Assembly: GCA_022822005.1 (NCBI GenBank) | Contig: JAJECO010000046.1 | Coordinates: 124,001-188,000, forward strand | Direction: 5' to 3' | DNA: 64,000 nucleotides | DNA from: Candidatus Poribacteria bacterium | GTDB lineage: Bacteria > Poribacteria > WGA-4E > PCPOR2b | Shown here: in pieces, positions 35,842 through 45,516 of the stretch | Position numbering within the stretch: position 1 is the first letter of the stretch | Layout of the letters: every line of letters starts with the position of its first letter | The notes under the pieces: model-generated | The model's input: the letters and a program-made list of their open reading frames with translations, nothing else | Databases searched by the model: none | What the model was told of the DNA's origin: nothing | Program-made: the position numbers and the translations under genes

Positions 35842-36666
35842 TTAATGGAAGTTACTCTTTATCTCTCCCCAAGTGGTTGTGAGTTGCTTCTGGGGCTGCA
35901 CTGAAAGAGCCTCGTATCGAACCTCAAAATCGTCGAAGTGGACACGGTTCCCCCATCCTGACGACAGATAAATTCTCCCTTTCGTATAGGTGTCGTCAAG
36001 AAAATCTAGCATTTCTTTGTCATCAATAAAACATTGAAACCGATTCCCTTTGGCAATAATCTTCAACCGATACCACTTGTGCAGTTCAAAATCAAATAGC
36101 CGAAATATGTGTAGCTTGCCTCTATTAATAAGAATTTTCCGTTCGTCCGGAATAACCTTCATCTGTTGAATGGCCGCTGCAAGACCTCTTCTTAAATTTC
36201 TGAGGTCTTGAATATGTATATTATTTTCAATATGTACATTACCTAGGTGGAACCTGTAAGATTGCCTGTACAGGAATATTCGGGCATCCTTGTTCCTCTC
36301 GTCCTCCTCTAAATCTAAAGTCCACGACTCAAGGAGCGGATGTATATGAGCGCGCAGCCCAATGGCTGCACCACTGCCAACATTCGTAACGATCTTGCTG
36401 ATTTTTAGGGATACCGACACTTCGTAGTCGCTTGAGATTATACCATCAACTGCAATCATCACCTCCGATTCCTCCTCCAATTTAGCTTCATCCACCACTT
36501 TAGGGGAACCGAGAACCAATTCGCCATTTTCAATACCACCATCTTCAGCACCCTCTACAAACGTCCATCCCTTTAGGTCACCATCGTTAAAATTATCACG
36601 AAATATCTCTGCCCATACTGATGACACCAATAACGTAAGTATCAACATAGCCATCATCTGCTTCAT
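35842..36666 (-). CDS. Secreted LamG-like protein, paralog 1
   Basis: A 274-residue exported protein. ATG 36666 begins a clean signal peptide (MKQMMAMLILTLLVSSVWA). The start FRDNFNDGDLKGWTFVEG, followed by strand-rich blocks and HKWYRLKIIAKGNRFQCFID near the end, is typical of concanavalin/LamG-like or 3-keto-disaccharide-hydrolase-like (DUF1080) domains that bind or process glycans. It is a close paralog of 38663-39472; the C-terminal 70 residues are almost identical. The two flank a sigma-factor gene on the same strand. Confidence 0.8.
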   Translation of the reverse strand: MKQMMAMLILTLLVSSVWAEIFRDNFNDGDLKGWTFVEGAEDGGIENGELVLGSPKVVDEAKLEEESEVMIAVDGIISSDYEVSVSLKISKIVTNVGSGAAIGLRAHIHPLLESWTLDLEEDERNKDARIFLYRQSYRFHLGNVHIENNIHIQDLRNLRRGLAAAIQQMKVIPDERKILINRGKLHIFRLFDFELHKWYRLKIIAKGNRFQCFIDDKEMLDFLDDTYTKGRIYLSSGWGNRVHFDDFEVRYEALSVQPQKQLTTTWGEIKSNFH

Positions 36667-36715
36667 GAGATAGCCCCTTCCTTCTCCACTGCAAGCCAAT
36701 ATATTATTGTGCAAC

Positions 36716-36953: not shown

Positions 36954-38474
36954 CTATCTGTCTTCACGTAGCGGCATGTTGGTATTGCTTTCGGGAGGGG
37001 GGTGTCGTTGATGCCGCATCTCTTGTCTCACGGCTGGGTTAACGGGCGGTTCCTCAATGACTCCTTCAATCTGCTGCTCTTGTTTAGTATTGAGCGGTCC
37101 CTGCTCATCCTGTCGAGGCGTTTCCCCTGCCGTGGTGATTCCCAACAATCTTTCCAATTCTGTCCACTCCTCATCTGAAAATTCGCTCAACAGTTTCTCA
37201 ACTTCTGCCCAACCTTCATCTGAAAGCTGGGCAGGTATTTCAGATGTTTCGGAGGAGGGCGCAGTGGATTCAACCCGCGAATCCGACGGGGTTAATGCAG
37301 AATGATCGGAATCGTGTACCTCCAGCTCTATGACTATGCTTGTTTCGACCCCATGCTGCTCATTCATGAACATGAGCTCACCTTTATTTTCAAGCACCTG
37401 AGTAATTATATTGTCACCACTATCACGGCGGTGTTCCAGTGTTTCTATTACCACTTGAGCAGCCTTTTGAACAACCTCTTCTACATTTTCGATCGACATC
37501 CCAGGCATTGCTTCCGACAGTCTCTCTTCCAGGAATTCCTGCACAGCCTCCCGTATATCTGCAATCTCAACGGCCTTCGCATACTTCATGCCGCGGTCAT
37601 CTGTTGACATTTCAAAGCGATCCGCTTCATCTGCCGTAGGGATAGATGCGTCATTCATTGGGGAACTATTATCCGACGTTGTGTCTGCCTGATGTACAAC
37701 CTTCGTTGATGAATTCTCTGTAGCAGTGTTCGGTTCCGAAATCGCTTGGGCGTTTACTCCCACAGGATTTGATTCAAATGCGTGGTAATACACCACACCG
37801 CCCCCACCGATTCCGATAATCGCCGCAACCCCGACTGCTGCGAGTTTTGCTTTCACCGATAATTTCACGGCTTCTATACCTCCTAAAATAAATGTTCGCC
37901 CCGGCAATATCGCCACACAGCCCAACAGTTTTTCGATTCGGCAGCGAATCTCCCGCTTTGCACGCTTGAGGCGGTTGGCGACCCCAGCATACGACAAGCC
38001 GGACTCGACCCGCAGCTGATCGTAACTTGCCCCGTCAATATAACGGGCTTCCATCAGTCTGCGGTCAGTCTCTTGTAGGGCACTGATTGCCTGTCGAACA
38101 ACGGTTTCGATTTCAGCCTTCAGGATAATCTCTTCAGGGGATGGAGATACTTCAGCGAAATCTGTGTCGTTAGTTGTCTCAAAACGAGTCGTCGAACCGC
38201 TTCGTCGCCGGAGCCAATCCTTACAAGTATTGTGTGCAATCTGTAGAAGCCACGCTCGAAAGCGATCCAACTCCCGCAAGGTTGCCAACCGCTCGTATGC
38301 CCGAATAAATATCCGTTGTGTGAGGTCTTCGGCATCTGCCGGATTTTTGATATATGACAGAACCAGCGTATAGATCCTTGTTCGGTGTATCTTGACCAAC
38401 CGATCAAACGCCGACGTATCGCCATTTAGTGTTTGTCGGACAAGATCAATTTCATTGGAACATTCAATCTTCAT
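36954..38474 (-). CDS. ECF-type sigma factor with C-terminal membrane and extracytoplasmic extension
   Basis: A 506-residue protein. The first 185 residues are a sigma-70 family ECF factor. Region 2 holds PADAEDLTQRIFIRAYERL and FRAWLLQIAHNTCKDWLRRR. Region 4 holds LMEARYIDGASYDQL and a helix-turn-helix in SYAGVANRLKRAKREIR. A single membrane helix follows (about 208-230, LAAVGVAAIIGIGGGGVVYY). About 275 extracytoplasmic residues follow, acidic, with two similar DEGW-AEVEKLLSEFS / DEEWTELERLLG blocks. ECF factors are normally soluble and about 190 residues. It lies between two paralogous secreted proteins in the same orientation. Confidence 0.88.
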   Translation of the reverse strand: MKIECSNEIDLVRQTLNGDTSAFDRLVKIHRTRIYTLVLSYIKNPADAEDLTQRIFIRAYERLATLRELDRFRAWLLQIAHNTCKDWLRRRSGSTTRFETTNDTDFAEVSPSPEEIILKAEIETVVRQAISALQETDRRLMEARYIDGASYDQLRVESGLSYAGVANRLKRAKREIRCRIEKLLGCVAILPGRTFILGGIEAVKLSVKAKLAAVGVAAIIGIGGGGVVYYHAFESNPVGVNAQAISEPNTATENSSTKVVHQADTTSDNSSPMNDASIPTADEADRFEMSTDDRGMKYAKAVEIADIREAVQEFLEERLSEAMPGMSIENVEEVVQKAAQVVIETLEHRRDSGDNIITQVLENKGELMFMNEQHGVETSIVIELEVHDSDHSALTPSDSRVESTAPSSETSEIPAQLSDEGWAEVEKLLSEFSDEEWTELERLLGITTAGETPRQDEQGPLNTKQEQQIEGVIEEPPVNPAVRQEMRHQRHPPPESNTNMPLREDR

Positions 38475-38662: not shown

Positions 38663-39472
38663 TTATCTGGTATGGAAGCCTCCCTTTATCTCTCCCCAAG
38701 TGGTCGTGATTTGCTCTCGGGGCTGCACTGCAAGAGCCTCATATTGAACCTCAAAGTCATCAAAGTGGACGCGGTTCCCCCATCCTGACGACAGATAAAT
38801 TGCCCCCTTTGTGTAGGTATCATCAAAAAAACCTAGCATTTCTTTGCCATCAATAAAGCATTGAAACCGATTCCCCTCGGCGATGATCTTCAAGCGATAC
38901 CACTTGTGCAGTCTGAAATCAAATATCCGAAACGCGCGCAGCTCGTCTCCAACAAACTTATCAATAACCAATTTGTTTCTTCCCTCAAACCCCTCCTCCA
39001 TACGCCGCATGGTCGCTCCAAGACCTCTTCTTATATCCTGAATGTTTACATCTTGAGTCCCAAGGAAGAAATTATAGGATCGCCAGTGCAGAAGCGTTGA
39101 GATTATCTTGGGGAGTATCTTCCCTTCTGTACGAGCCTCCTCAATGAGCGATTCAAGGATCGGAGGTGTGTGAGCGCGCAGCCCAATGGTTGCCCCACCG
39201 TTAGTCTCTCTATCTAGCCTGCTGATTTTTAGGGACACCGCCACTTCATAGGTACCTGAGAGTATACCATCAAGCGCAATGATAACCTCCGTCTCATGCT
39301 CCGCTTTAGGAGAACTGAGAACCAATTCACCATTTTGAATACTACCATCTTCAGCACCTTGCAAAAACGTCCACCCCTGTAAGTCACCATCGTTAAAATC
39401 ATCACGAAATACCTCTGCCTGGACTGATGGCACAAACAACGTAAGTATCAACATAACCATCATGTGCTTCAT
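38663..39472 (-). CDS. Secreted LamG-like protein, paralog 2
   Basis: A 269-residue exported protein with a signal peptide (MKHMMVMLILTLFVPSVQA) and the same domain layout as 35842-36666: FRDDFNDGDLQGWTFLQG at the start and HKWYRLKIIAEGNRFQCFID near the end. The middle differs in length and sequence, so the pair has diverged there. It is the first gene of a same-strand set with the sigma factor and paralog 1. Glycan binding is a possible role, inferred from the fold. Confidence 0.8.
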   Translation of the reverse strand: MKHMMVMLILTLFVPSVQAEVFRDDFNDGDLQGWTFLQGAEDGSIQNGELVLSSPKAEHETEVIIALDGILSGTYEVAVSLKISRLDRETNGGATIGLRAHTPPILESLIEEARTEGKILPKIISTLLHWRSYNFFLGTQDVNIQDIRRGLGATMRRMEEGFEGRNKLVIDKFVGDELRAFRIFDFRLHKWYRLKIIAEGNRFQCFIDGKEMLGFFDDTYTKGAIYLSSGWGNRVHFDDFEVQYEALAVQPREQITTTWGEIKGGFHTR

Positions 39473-39807: not shown

Positions 39808-40149
39808 TTATACCGTTGGAATCGCATCGTATAACAGCACATTGAATCCAACGAAAAGAGTATCTCCGAACTGTAGCGTAGGTGCACGTAGATTTCCGCT
39901 TCGTCCCATAACCGCTTTGAGGATGGCATCTTGTGAGTCAACATTTGGGTCGAAAACATCGACTTTCTTGCCTTTGGCGACGTGAATGGATTGAGCGGCT
40001 TTAATACGGTCCCAAACCTCGGTTGGATTCAACTTCTCCTTACGGGCATCCGTTCGACTGTCCACCCGAATGTTGTTTGCGTCAAGAAACTCTTGCGCTT
40101 TTCGACACGAAGTTCAGCTATTCCTAAAAAACATCCAATTTGCTGTCAT
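39808..40149 (-). CDS. Probable selenoprotein, ArsC/Spx-like thioredoxin fold, in-frame UGA as Sec
   Basis: Reading from ATG 40149, preceded by GGAGG with a 6-base gap, the frame is M-T-A-N-W-M-F-F-R-N-S-UGA-T-S-C-R-K-A-Q-E-F-L, continuing to a normal TAA at 39808. Codon 12 is TGA (40116-40114). Read as selenocysteine, it gives U12-x-x-C15 followed by RKAxEFL. This is the redox motif and helix of the ArsC/Spx/YfgD family, where the first position is Cys. The total of 113 residues is the usual family length. Later blocks are NPTEVWDRIK and GRSGNLRAPTLQFGDTLFVGF, with the cis-proline before TLQ. A SECIS-like hairpin follows at the correct spacing. It lies 58 bases after the amidohydrolase gene. 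A pseudogene is the alternative. Confidence 0.82.
40079..40098 (-). promoter_or_regulatory. Bacterial SECIS-like hairpin
   Basis: On the minus strand, GCG-CAAGA pairs with TCTTG-A-CGC around a GTT loop. This gives eight pairs with one bulged A on the 3' side. The loop begins 23 bases after the UGA and its first base is G. Bacterial SECIS elements are described as lying within about 16-37 bases of UGA, with a G early in a small apical loop. Confidence 0.7.
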
Positions 40150-40207
40150 CAATTTCCTCCATTCCTTGTGATTTGTGTTAGGGGCAGCAGAAAGATTTTG
40201 CCTGCTA

Positions 40208-41422
40208 CTACTCCTGGTGGTTCGATGAGTAGCAGATTTTTCCGCCAACAACTGTTAATAGATTCTCGGAAGCGCTATCAAGAATCTGTTCAATAGCAGG
40301 ACGACCATCATTTGGAATTTTCACAGCGATGATATCTGCCTGCCAGCCTCTCTCCAATCGTCCGACCCGCTCTAGACCAAGCGCCTTTGCGCCGTTATAG
40401 GTCACCATGTCGAATAACGTTTCAGGGTGGATGCGCGGTTGGGTACGGCCGAGGAACTTCAACTCATCGAGCAGACTCAAGGACCAATTACTCGCCAGAC
40501 TATCGGTCCCAATGGCGACATTAATACCCCGTTCAATCAACTGTAGAACAGGGTGGTCGGTATGATAGAAGTAATGGTGGCTCCGTGGGCAGAACACCAC
40601 AGATGCACCACTCTCAGCAAGGATTGTCACATCTGCGTCAGTCAGGTAATTGCAGTGGGCTAAGAGCGATTTTTTGTCTAAGACACCCAACGTTTCCATA
40701 TACTGCATCGGTGTTGCTTGCGGCGGGCGCCACCCGGCTGTTGAGATGCCAAACGCTTCCAGATAGTCCACAAACGCACCCGTACCGCTGGAGAGAAATT
40801 CAAGCTCCTCCTTGGTTTCCGCTATATGGGTGCAAACTGACAAACCAGATGCGACACATTGACGATAAATATCAGCTGATGTAGAATAGGGGGCGTGTGG
40901 TGACAACGCAGGTGTCAACAACGAATCGAGCACAGGAGCGGCATCTAAATATGCCGTAAGTCGAGCGAGTCCTGTGGTGGCGTGTTCACCGGAAAAACCG
41001 AGTACCTCACAGAAAACCACCTTCCGAATCGGCGTATCCCTCAGAATCTGTGCGGATCCCCCGGTGCCGTCGATATCTCCCACGGCTGTCACACCACCGG
41101 CTAAACTTTGCTGCACCCCTTCTCGAATAGACGGTTCTATTGTTGAAGGGTTCCGCTTCCCAACGATTTGGAATACCCAATCGGTAAATTTGGGGACCCG
41201 CTGAACTGAATCGGCACTGCTTGTTAGATCAAGGTGGGTATGTGCGTTCACCAAGCCGGGGGTGAGGATCGCTTCGCCGAGGTCGTGTATTGGGAGAGTG
41301 CCGCTGTGCTGAATCGTCGGATACGGTCCGACATCGACGATCTCCGACCCTTGAATGGCAACCGCGCCATTCTCAATAATTGTGTAGCTATTTGGCATTA
41401 CATATTTTGCGCGTAAGATCAT
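40208..41422 (-). CDS. Amidohydrolase of the MtaD/SsnA/chlorohydrolase group
   Basis: A 404-residue metal-dependent hydrolase. ATG 41422 has GTAGGGAC upstream and begins MILRAKYVMPNSYTIIENGA, the family's N-terminal beta-sandwich. Metal ligands are in VNAHTHLDLT (HxH), CTHIAETKEE and LLAHCNYLTD (His), with the final Asp in AIGTDSLASN. FCPRSHHYFYHTDHP is the substrate-loop block. This is the adenosine/guanine/S-adenosylhomocysteine deaminase type. The exact substrate is not readable. The probable selenoprotein gene follows 58 bases downstream. Confidence 0.9.
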   Translation of the reverse strand: MILRAKYVMPNSYTIIENGAVAIQGSEIVDVGPYPTIQHSGTLPIHDLGEAILTPGLVNAHTHLDLTSSADSVQRVPKFTDWVFQIVGKRNPSTIEPSIREGVQQSLAGGVTAVGDIDGTGGSAQILRDTPIRKVVFCEVLGFSGEHATTGLARLTAYLDAAPVLDSLLTPALSPHAPYSTSADIYRQCVASGLSVCTHIAETKEELEFLSSGTGAFVDYLEAFGISTAGWRPPQATPMQYMETLGVLDKKSLLAHCNYLTDADVTILAESGASVVFCPRSHHYFYHTDHPVLQLIERGINVAIGTDSLASNWSLSLLDELKFLGRTQPRIHPETLFDMVTYNGAKALGLERVGRLERGWQADIIAVKIPNDGRPAIEQILDSASENLLTVVGGKICYSSNHQE

Positions 41423-41479
41423 ACAAGTCCCTACAGTGAAACTTAAAACTAATCCTCTACCAACAAACAAGGAATCTCT

Positions 41480-43069
41480 ATGAATTCCAAGATTACCGGA
41501 CACGCCACATCACAAGCGACACAAGCCTTCGGGGACCGAATGAACGCCCAGTACCCTGCCTTCGAGGCAAATGCGTATCGCCGGCTCACCGGCACGGGTC
41601 TGATAACGTCCAAGATCGGCTACGGCACCTACCGCGTACATGACCAAGATGAAACACAGACTGAAACGCTGGAATCAGCGATCGAAGCGGGGTGTAATCT
41701 GATTGATACCTCCAGCAATTACACCGACGGCGGCAGTGAAACCTTAATCGGTAATGTCCTACAAAAGATGATTTCTGCTGGCGAAATCGCGCGGGAAGAA
41801 ATCATCGTTGTCTCGAAAGTCGGCTACATGCAGGGGCAAAACCTCGAGCAGGCACAGCAACGGGAAACTGCGGGCAATCCGTGGGAAGAGGTCGTCAAAT
41901 ATATGGAAGGTTGCTGGCACTGCATCCACCCTGATTTTCTGATTGACCAGTGGACGCGTAGCACAGATCGACTGGGTTTGGAAACCATCGATGTTTACCT
42001 ACTACACAACCCAGAGTACTTCCTGTCCGATGCCAAGAACCGATCCTCCCAATCTAATAACTGGGACGCAATACGTGATGCCTTCTACGACCGTGTCTAC
42101 CGCGCATTTGTGCAGATGGAACAGTTCGTGGCGGATGGAAAAATTCGCCACTACGGTGTCTCATCGAATACCTTCCCGTCATCACAAACCGACCTTGAGC
42201 ACGTCTCCCTCAATCGCGTGGTTGAGGCAGCTGCCAAAGCCGCAGAGACTGTGTATGGTGATCATGCGGTGAGCCATTTCAAGGTGATTCAACTTCCATA
42301 CAACCTCGTTGAACCCGAGGCATTAACCGAAACGAATAACGAAATCGACGGAAAACGGGTAACCGTCCTTGGGGCAGCAGAGTCCCTTGGACTTGGTGTT
42401 CTCGTGAATCGTCCCCTGAACGCTTTCAAGGACAATCGGATGACCCGCTTGGCACAATATGAGCACCATCCAAACGCCAATTACCCTCAGATGATGTCCT
42501 TAGCAGAGAGCGCATTAACCCAAGTCGAAACCAGGATGGAGCAAACACTGAAAAGTTGGGGAATTTTCGATTCGGTGCAAAATCAGGTCAATGTACATCT
42601 TTTTTACGATGTCGCCCAACAACTCGGCGGATTTATGCCGCGCGTCCAAGATCGCAATCATTGGGAACAGATTCTACAGCAGCATCTGATTCCACAGATC
42701 AATGCCTATCTGCGCCAAACCGGGGTCGCCTGCCTAAATCAACATCAAACAGAGTGGGAAGGCTTGCTCGCCCAATATGTCGATGCACTTAATACCCTGT
42801 TCGCAGTCATATCGGAAATTTTTAACCGTGTGGATGCGGAAAAGGTTGAACCGATCTCTCAGGCGTTGAACCAGCACCTCTCCGACGATGAGGGGGCGCT
42901 GAGTCTCTCTCAACGAGCATTGAACTTCGTGACTTCGTCGCCGGGGGTATCTGTCGTGCTAAATGGGATGAAACGCGAAGAATATGTTGAGGACGCAATG
43001 GGCATTATGGAAGTGTCTGATTTCCCACAGCCGCTCGCGCTGATCGAAAGCGTAGCGCATACGGTGTGA
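41480..43069 (+). CDS. Aldo/keto reductase with a large insertion
   Basis: A 529-residue protein with clear aldo/keto reductase landmarks. These are GYGTYRV at the start, NLIDTSSNYTDGGSETLIG (the catalytic Asp and Tyr), VVSKVGYMQG (Lys), IDVYLLHNPEYFL (His) and a C-terminal LNFVTSSPGVSVVLNGMKREEYVEDAM. Normal members are about 330 residues. The extra length is a roughly 140-residue helical segment (about residues 320-465) before the NADPH-binding C-terminal block, plus about 35 residues at the start. AAGGAATC precedes the ATG. It is divergent from the amidohydrolase. Confidence 0.86.
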   Translation: MNSKITGHATSQATQAFGDRMNAQYPAFEANAYRRLTGTGLITSKIGYGTYRVHDQDETQTETLESAIEAGCNLIDTSSNYTDGGSETLIGNVLQKMISAGEIAREEIIVVSKVGYMQGQNLEQAQQRETAGNPWEEVVKYMEGCWHCIHPDFLIDQWTRSTDRLGLETIDVYLLHNPEYFLSDAKNRSSQSNNWDAIRDAFYDRVYRAFVQMEQFVADGKIRHYGVSSNTFPSSQTDLEHVSLNRVVEAAAKAAETVYGDHAVSHFKVIQLPYNLVEPEALTETNNEIDGKRVTVLGAAESLGLGVLVNRPLNAFKDNRMTRLAQYEHHPNANYPQMMSLAESALTQVETRMEQTLKSWGIFDSVQNQVNVHLFYDVAQQLGGFMPRVQDRNHWEQILQQHLIPQINAYLRQTGVACLNQHQTEWEGLLAQYVDALNTLFAVISEIFNRVDAEKVEPISQALNQHLSDDEGALSLSQRALNFVTSSPGVSVVLNGMKREEYVEDAMGIMEVSDFPQPLALIESVAHTV

Positions 43070-43974: not shown

Positions 43975-44376
43975 TTAGATGACTCCTGTGAATATCTCCG
44001 CTTTGACCCATTCGGCTAGGGTTACTGCCTGCTCCGCCTGTTTTTGCGAAATTACCTCAAACTCTTCAGGATAGCGCATATCCACCCCGTATGGCGTCAA
44101 CACATCGGCCCTCTCCAATCGTTCTGCCAAAGTAGCATCCCGGCGCGCTACTAACTGCCGCAATCGTCCAATATCGTGGGTTTTGGGAAACTCAATCTGA
44201 TGGCGTACTAAAAATGCCTTGATATATTTCTCAACAGCTTGCTGGGCGTGAAATCCACTGACGAAATAGTCGTCCAATTCGCCTGCACAAAGAAGCCTTG
44301 CTGCCTGAAGATCTAGATCAGCTTTTTTCAACCACTGTTGTACAAAATCCGCTACCACTTGCTCAGGATGCCTCAT
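43975..44376 (-). CDS. HEPN-domain protein of a HEPN/MNT pair
   Basis: A 133-residue all-helical HEPN protein. The block VSGFHAQQAVEKYIKAFLV followed by EFPKTHDIGRLRQLV is the standard signature of the family (PF05168 type). Many such genes, paired with a nucleotidyltransferase gene, act as toxin-antitoxin modules in which HEPN is an RNase neutralised by adenylylation. The canonical R-x4-6-H motif is not evident, so RNase activity is uncertain. Its start overlaps the end of the MNT gene by 14 bases. Confidence 0.85.
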   Translation of the reverse strand: MRHPEQVVADFVQQWLKKADLDLQAARLLCAGELDDYFVSGFHAQQAVEKYIKAFLVRHQIEFPKTHDIGRLRQLVARRDATLAERLERADVLTPYGVDMRYPEEFEVISQKQAEQAVTLAEWVKAEIFTGVI

Positions 44377-44695
44377 GCAAAACCACCCCGTATTTGTACG
44401 CAGGAAAGGCTAAGCCCCCGATGATCTCTTTGGTTTCCTCAAACTCCATCTCCCCCATGACCCACACATCCACCTCGTATGGTACGTCCGTTAAATACGC
44501 CCGCAGTCGATGCCTCTCATCGCGCTTGATCACCGGATCGGCTGCGACCACCAACAGGTCGAAATCGCTATCGGGGTGTGCCATCCCCTGTGCCCGCGAG
44601 CCATACAGAATGATCTGGCGTATCGGTTGATCCGTTCCAGTGAGAATCCGATCCTTCAAGAGCAGAGCGGCTTGTCGTTCTTGTTCGGCGGTCAT
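44363..44695 (-). CDS. MNT-type minimal nucleotidyltransferase of a HEPN/MNT pair
   Basis: A 110-residue minimal nucleotidyltransferase. ATG 44695 has AAGGAGA upstream and is preferred to an earlier in-frame start. The catalytic block IILYGSRAQGMAHPDSDFDL has the GSRA..G turn and the two metal-binding aspartates. A third acid is probably in PYEVDVWVMGE. It lies upstream of and overlaps the HEPN gene, the normal order in such pairs, and would be the antitoxin that adenylylates HEPN. Confidence 0.88.
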   Translation of the reverse strand: MTAEQERQAALLLKDRILTGTDQPIRQIILYGSRAQGMAHPDSDFDLLVVAADPVIKRDERHRLRAYLTDVPYEVDVWVMGEMEFEETKEIIGGLAFPAYKYGVVLHEAS

Positions 44696-44718
44696 AGTCT
44701 TCTCCTTAGCAGACGGAT

Positions 44719-45516
44719 TCACTGAAGGGCGTAAGTCCTATCTGGTTTAATCGCTCGCACCTTGATACTCGCAACCTCCGCCTTTCCAATTTTGGCGTAA
44801 GGGGATTTGTTGAGTACCTGAACTCCCTCCAATCCCGCCCGACGGATTGAGTCCAGATATTGGTCTTCAGGCAGTGCTCCAGAAATACAATTCGCCCAAT
44901 TGCTAATCGTTGATCTCAACCACTTGGGCAGATGGTTCGCGACGATGTCCGACACCAATAATTTTCCGCCCGGTTTGAGGACGCGATACGCTTCCCGAAA
45001 GACCAAATCTTTGTCCGGGGCAAGGTTAATCACACAGTTAGAGATGATCCAATCCACACTTCCATCCTCGACCGGCATTGACTCAATTTCGCCTAATCGG
45101 AATTCGACATTTTTTGCCGCCGCTTCTTCTGCATTCTTTCGCGCTTTCTCGATCATCTCTGGCGTCATGTCGATACCAATCGCTCTTCCGCTCGCACCAA
45201 CGAGTTGTGCCGCAAGCAGCACATCAATACCCGCCCCTGACCCAAGGTCAAGCACGACGTCCCCTTCACAAATATCAGCATACATCAGTGGGTTCCCACA
45301 ACCGAAAGAATTTTCAATGGCATCGTTAGGGATACTGGAAAGCTGTACATCGGTATATTCGTTCTGATTTGCGAAGTCCCCTTTAAGCGCTTCTTCAATG
45401 TTGATCTCTGTACCGCAGCAGTCAGAAGGTGAGCAACAAGATTCATCGCTCCTTACCAAATCTGCGTAATGTTCGCGGACAGTTGATTTAATCTGTTCTG
45501 CGTTGTGGACTGTCAT
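44719..45516 (-). CDS. arsM: Arsenite methyltransferase
   Basis: A 265-residue SAM methyltransferase of the ArsM family, which methylates arsenite. SAM motif I is VLDLGSGAGID (88-98), then ELI-type GIDMTPEMI. Three cysteines at the expected places, C73 (FGCGNP), C161 (SNCVINL) and C210 (WANCISG), are the arsenic ligands. An N-terminal cysteine cluster SCCSPSDCCG (26-35) adds possible metal-binding sites seen in many ArsM. No arsR or arsB gene is adjacent, although the ArsC-fold selenoprotein lies 4.6 kb away on the same strand. Confidence 0.9.
   Translation of the reverse strand: MTVHNAEQIKSTVREHYADLVRSDESCCSPSDCCGTEINIEEALKGDFANQNEYTDVQLSSIPNDAIENSFGCGNPLMYADICEGDVVLDLGSGAGIDVLLAAQLVGASGRAIGIDMTPEMIEKARKNAEEAAAKNVEFRLGEIESMPVEDGSVDWIISNCVINLAPDKDLVFREAYRVLKPGGKLLVSDIVANHLPKWLRSTISNWANCISGALPEDQYLDSIRRAGLEGVQVLNKSPYAKIGKAEVASIKVRAIKPDRTYALQ

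Follow-up and report, generated by a model that had tools for sequence, protein, structure and literature searches.

We conclude that UGA at codon 12 of a small poribacterial gene almost certainly encodes selenocysteine (Sec), a reading that would account for the recurrence of the codon in homologues, its exchange with Cys, the pairing of a SECIS hairpin downstream and the Sec machinery of the genome. The account that best joins these results, in which the product is a selenoprotein of family NF041106 with Sec at UGA12 that would serve as a Sec/Cys thiol-disulfide oxidoreductase, is very likely to be correct. The gene lies within the window, by which we mean the whole 64,000-nucleotide stretch of DNA that was analysed, and its source genome, that of a sponge-associated bacterium, is a Poribacteria MAG of 6.0 Mb in 97 contigs; among named genomes, its nearest relatives all belong to Candidatus Poribacteria. 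The elements of the locus are as follows:

39808-40149, minus strand: predicted ArsC/Spx-fold selenoprotein gene, 113 codons plus TAA, with a single in-frame UGA
40114-40116, minus strand: UGA codon 12 (predicted Sec), first residue of UxxC; TGA conserved in homologues, Cys in five Desulfobulbales
40105-40107, minus strand: codon for Cys15, presumed resolving residue of UxxC; Cys in 80 of 80 UGA homologues
40156-40160, minus strand: GGAGG ribosome-binding site, 6 nt before the ATG at 40149
40079-40098, minus strand: putative bacterial SECIS hairpin of 8 pairs, with a bulged A at 40082 and a GUU loop at 40090-40088
40208-41503, minus strand: amidohydrolase gene, the upstream neighbor, 58 nt before the selenoprotein ATG

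The initial annotation had described an ATG with a good ribosome site and a frame interrupted by one TGA at codon 12, and both descriptions agree with the elements listed, as the frame is open after that codon through the TAA at 39810-39808. Standard ORF calling begins at a GTG (40065) and retains just the final 85 codons, a loss that had also been pointed out correctly. Translated with Sec at codon 12 the sequence reads ...FFRNSUTSCRKAQEFLDA..., in which the motif U12-T-S-C15 (UxxC) opens the first helix.

Within the phylum, homologues were found in 71 of 85 genomes, each with exactly one TGA. A species-level scan of 84,980 genomes yielded 80 kept homologue loci from Poribacteria, Desulfobulbales/Desulfobacterales, Anaerolineales and Calditrichota, and in all 80 of these named homologues the aligned codon is TGA, with Cys three residues on. 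Sampling 146 genomes of the order that includes Desulfogranum (Desulfobulbales) gave 85 matches, with one TGA in 80 and none in the other five. In these five the codon is TGT or TGC, and the motif is CxxC in four and CxxS in one, which places Ser at the Cys15 position. Among sequences whose codon was read the site is therefore Sec or Cys and nothing else, and the suggestion in the initial annotation that homologues should have Cys or UGA here is borne out wherever the codon was read. Its author was right to read Sec, and the case is stronger than could have been known at that point. The gene represents one near-universal Sec target in Poribacteria of the source order, clipped by standard ORF callers.

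The gene had also been put forward as a probable new selenoprotein, and at the level of the family this claim fails. In an NCBIfam search the protein scored 121.3 bits against NF041106 (ArsC_rel_Se_1), for which the cut-off is 85, over positions 2-106 of the 107 in the profile, and NF041106 also matched all 36 members of a diverse homologue alignment. Spx, ArsC and glutaredoxin models gave weak matches in the profile search. The likeness to NF041106, an "ArsC family (seleno)protein", consists of a whole-length match above the cut-off, Sec as the first residue of UxxC and equal length, with no family-defining difference from the poribacterial protein; the UxxC/CxxC motif of the family is present, as UxxC in 80 of 80 named homologues and with Cys variants in five. 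This kind of selenoprotein is already known: a 2026 review (PMC13188914) includes NF041106 under the name "Arsenate reductase-like protein, UxxC", PMC9312934 had earlier catalogued an arsenate reductase-like selenoprotein with UxxC, and ArsC-like selenoproteins date back to PMC1794560 and PMC2398784. The arsenate reductase selenoprotein of marine surveys (TIGR00014; PMC2398784, PMC13188914) likewise has an ArsC fold; however, it carries UxxS and belongs to another NCBI family, whereas the poribacterial protein carries UxxC. None of the papers covered by the literature search mentions selenoproteins together with Poribacteria. We conclude that the poribacterial gene adds a well-supported member to a known family and is not a new kind of selenoprotein.

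An AlphaFold2 model built on the homologue alignment (pLDDT 94.9, pTM 0.88) matched Spx best in the PDB, followed by ArsC-related and YffB proteins, with TM-scores of only about 0.5. The ArsC/Spx fold proposed earlier is supported. Invariant residues include W5, R9, Sec12, C15, K37, W46, G60, G82-R83-S84-G85, L87-R88-A89-P90, G101 and N103. The product would be small, with a thioredoxin fold of the ArsC/Spx/YffB type. From the fold and the motif we infer that Sec12, at the start of helix 1, would be the nucleophile, that it would form a selenenyl-sulfide with Cys15, and that a cellular thiol or thioredoxin would reduce this bond. The protein would most probably reduce a disulfide or another oxidised thiol, as glutaredoxin-like YffB/ArsC-fold reductases do. 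A role as Sec/Cys thiol-disulfide oxidoreductase is the one we predict, and we hold it to be reasonably probable. The protein is probably neither an arsenate reductase with the Arg triad nor a transcription regulator of the Spx type that binds RNA polymerase.

We considered whether the protein is a true arsenate reductase in which Sec replaces Cys12 of ArsC. The ArsC-like fold, the name "arsenate reductase-like" given to NF041106 in reviews, and an arsenite methyltransferase gene nearby (44719-45516) in the window's genus are all consistent with this idea, which we nonetheless judge unlikely. ArsC and YffB (PF03960, COG1393) share the fold and the position of the catalytic residue with the poribacterial protein, but they have a single Cys and an Arg before Pro, whereas the poribacterial protein has UxxC, has apparently not kept the Arg and falls below the Pfam cut-off (12 bits against PF03960, cut-off 24). 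In a profile alignment made with Spx only, the invariant Ala89 of LRAP precedes the presumed cis-Pro where Spx has Arg (LRRP). In ArsC the Arg before Pro is part of the anion (oxyanion) site. A search of the source genome with PF03960 found no canonical ArsC-family protein. The arsenite methyltransferase gene is near the selenoprotein gene only in the window's genus, where the whole neighborhood is conserved, and near no homologue elsewhere in 5 kb flanks. An arsenic link through this gene was set aside because of that restriction.

Other neighbors also differ by lineage. The amidohydrolase gene is conserved directly upstream in the window's genus only. One other poribacterial family mostly has a Gfo/Idh/MocA oxidoreductase gene before the selenoprotein gene and an NAD-dependent epimerase gene after it, and eight Desulfobulbales/Desulfobacterales loci encode a rhodanese-rubrerythrin protein next to it. 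A further poribacterial family includes two genomes (loci L168, G011:C22, and L169, G014:C268) in which the gene directly follows selA, at a gap of 22 nt in the one genome measured. The comparison found no gene partner common across lineages, with mostly unrelated genes elsewhere, and the neighbors pointed to no general function. A search of plasmid records found no encoded relative.

The position after selA in those two genomes and the near-universal presence of the gene in an order that uses selenium, together with a signature (GRSGNLRAP, GYN) unlike those of ArsC and Spx, suggest a dedicated redox partner in selenium metabolism or Sec synthesis, such as a reductase acting in the path of the selenium donor; we regard this as very unlikely. 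A redox-sensing regulator that binds RNA polymerase as Spx does is likewise highly improbable. Spx is the best PDB match by both sequence and fold, TIGR01617 (Spx/MgsR) is matched weakly, and the proteins have in common the fold, an N-terminal redox pair and G-x-L-R-x-P in the C-terminal half. However, the scores lie far under the cut-offs of the Spx and TIGR01617 models (20.7 against 75.05 bits and 21.9 against 123 bits, respectively), and where Spx has a first Cys, a polymerase-contact stretch and Arg before Pro, the poribacterial protein has Sec, no such stretch and Ala. In the profile alignment with Spx this stretch, the four residues TEDG, is an insertion relative to the NF041106 family, from which it is absent. 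TEDG holds Gly52, which contacts the C-terminal domain of the RNA polymerase alpha subunit.

The predicted Sec codon is followed by a hairpin of the sequence GCGCAAGA-GUU-UCUUG(A)CGC, with five pairs, one bulged A and three further pairs around a 3-nt loop with G first, so that the stem of eight pairs, single bulge and GTT loop 23 bases after the UGA claimed in the initial annotation are all present at 40098-40079. The bSECIS model specifies a loop of 3-9 nt with G at loop position 1 or 2, an upper stem of 4-16 bp, a distance of 16-37 nt from the UGA and an energy of -7.5 kcal/mol or below (PMC13188914). When the hairpin was compared with this model, as had been proposed, the loop (GUU), the stem (5 bp, bulge, 3 bp) and the distance (23 nt) agreed. 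The energy was borderline: the 20 nt taken in isolation form the described hairpin at -7.0 kcal/mol (z -2.3), narrowly short of the limit, and a longer single-sequence context prefers a different hairpin (-11.7 kcal/mol, z -1.4). An Rfam search returned no relevant match. We also counted 21 read-through frames in the window that have an ATG ahead of the TGA and 80 or more open codons past it, and found a consensus-like stem with at least five continuous pairs in eight of them, the selenoprotein gene included. The hairpin and open frame alone are not above chance, and homology and comparison carry the case.

We regard the comparison across genes as decisive for the predicted SECIS hairpin. With a null model in which the synonymous codons of each gene were redrawn and the expected full pairing counted, all eight positions were paired in 40 of 56 poribacterial genes (1.07 expected) and all seven positions tested were paired in 10 of 25 genes from other phyla (0.07 expected); the genes compared share ancestry, and these counts are not independent events. 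Codons 17, 19, 20, 22 and 23 show zero synonymous variation in Poribacteria, and codons 32, 33, 35 and 36 vary freely. Compensated pairs occur in the lower stem (U-A/C-G, from Val/Ala18 with Thr/Ala24), next to the loop (A-U/C-G) and in the upper stem of other phyla (G-C/A-U). Among UGA forms, the five core pairs are intact in 48 of 58 genes from Poribacteria and 26 of 34 from other phyla, and the loop begins with G in 58 of 58 and 27 of 34, respectively, the seven exceptions being TGT loops with G second. Core pairing is incomplete in every one of the five Cys forms, whose loops start with A or T. Exchange of Sec for Cys alongside SECIS decay in NF041106 thus provides a clear natural control.

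These results bear on the reading of UGA as an ordinary stop or a nonsense mutation, under which the gene would be a pseudogene or would encode an 85-codon protein with a downstream start. Standard ORF calling does end there, and several other hairpins in the window are as good as this one in a single sequence. However, the same UGA and never another stop recurs in 71 genomes within the phylum and in 80 named ones from several phyla, as expected from the earlier claim that it is no chance nonsense mutation; W5 and R9, upstream of the UGA, are invariant; the hairpin region is synonymously frozen; relatives have Cys at the UGA position; and the genome has Sec machinery. An ordinary stop is hardly credible and appears already refuted in practice by conservation.

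The initial annotation had predicted selA, selB, selC and selD in the host genome, and all four were found:

C78:285-374: tRNA-Sec gene (selC), 76 bits; called tRNA-SeC by ARAGORN, anticodon UCA (tca)
C78:432-2324: selB, score over the cut-off
C78:2400-3758: selA, 602 bits
C66:75130-76050: selD, with an in-frame TGA

The first three are consecutive in one cluster on contig C78, and selD is on C66. The comparative evidence and this machinery suggest that tRNA-Sec and SelB would decode UGA at codon 12, guided by the hairpin just downstream. A general reassignment of UGA in the host, for example to Trp or Gly, could give a UGA inside a conserved open frame but has a negligible chance of being right, as selA, selB, selC and selD are all in the genome, Cys is the sole replacement seen at codon 12, and neighboring genes are full-length under table 11 with no interior UGA. 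Across the 85 genomes of the phylum, selA was found in 72 and the selenoprotein gene in 71, with both in 62, the selenoprotein gene only in nine, selA only in 10 and neither in four. The nine gene-bearing genomes (of 71) in which the selA search gave no match are mostly, though not all, incomplete MAGs. Outside the phylum selA is present in 20 of 23 gene-bearing genomes, and it is still present in four of the five Desulfobulbales genomes with the Cys form. SelA and SelB are noted in most sponge-symbiont bins in a passage of PMC5649159 that gives no target protein, and the selenoprotein gene is likely one client of the symbiont SelA/SelB.

Several other genes of the source genome merit description. 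The in-frame TGA of selD (L055:1460-1600, G000:C66) stands in a CG-U-AAK context, which indicates that SelD of this genome would itself be a selenoprotein, as is known for SelD in general. The arsenite methyltransferase, whose gene lies on the minus strand about 4.6 kb upstream of that of the selenoprotein, scored 300.6 bits against NF008823 (cut-off 263). Two small overlapping genes, also on the minus strand, lie at 43975-44376 and 44363-44722; the protein of the latter weakly matches the type VII MntA antitoxin (36.9 against 60 bits) and that of the former is HEPN-like by eye, and the two are possibly a HEPN-MNT toxin-antitoxin pair. Two similar proteins are encoded at 35842-36714 and 38663-39472 on the minus strand, the second of which matches PF06439, the 3-keto-disaccharide hydrolase family; by eye, its C-terminal sequence is shared by the first. 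Between them, at 36954-38474 on the minus strand, is a gene for an ECF sigma factor (TIGR02937) whose long C-terminal extension contains a hydrophobic stretch by eye.
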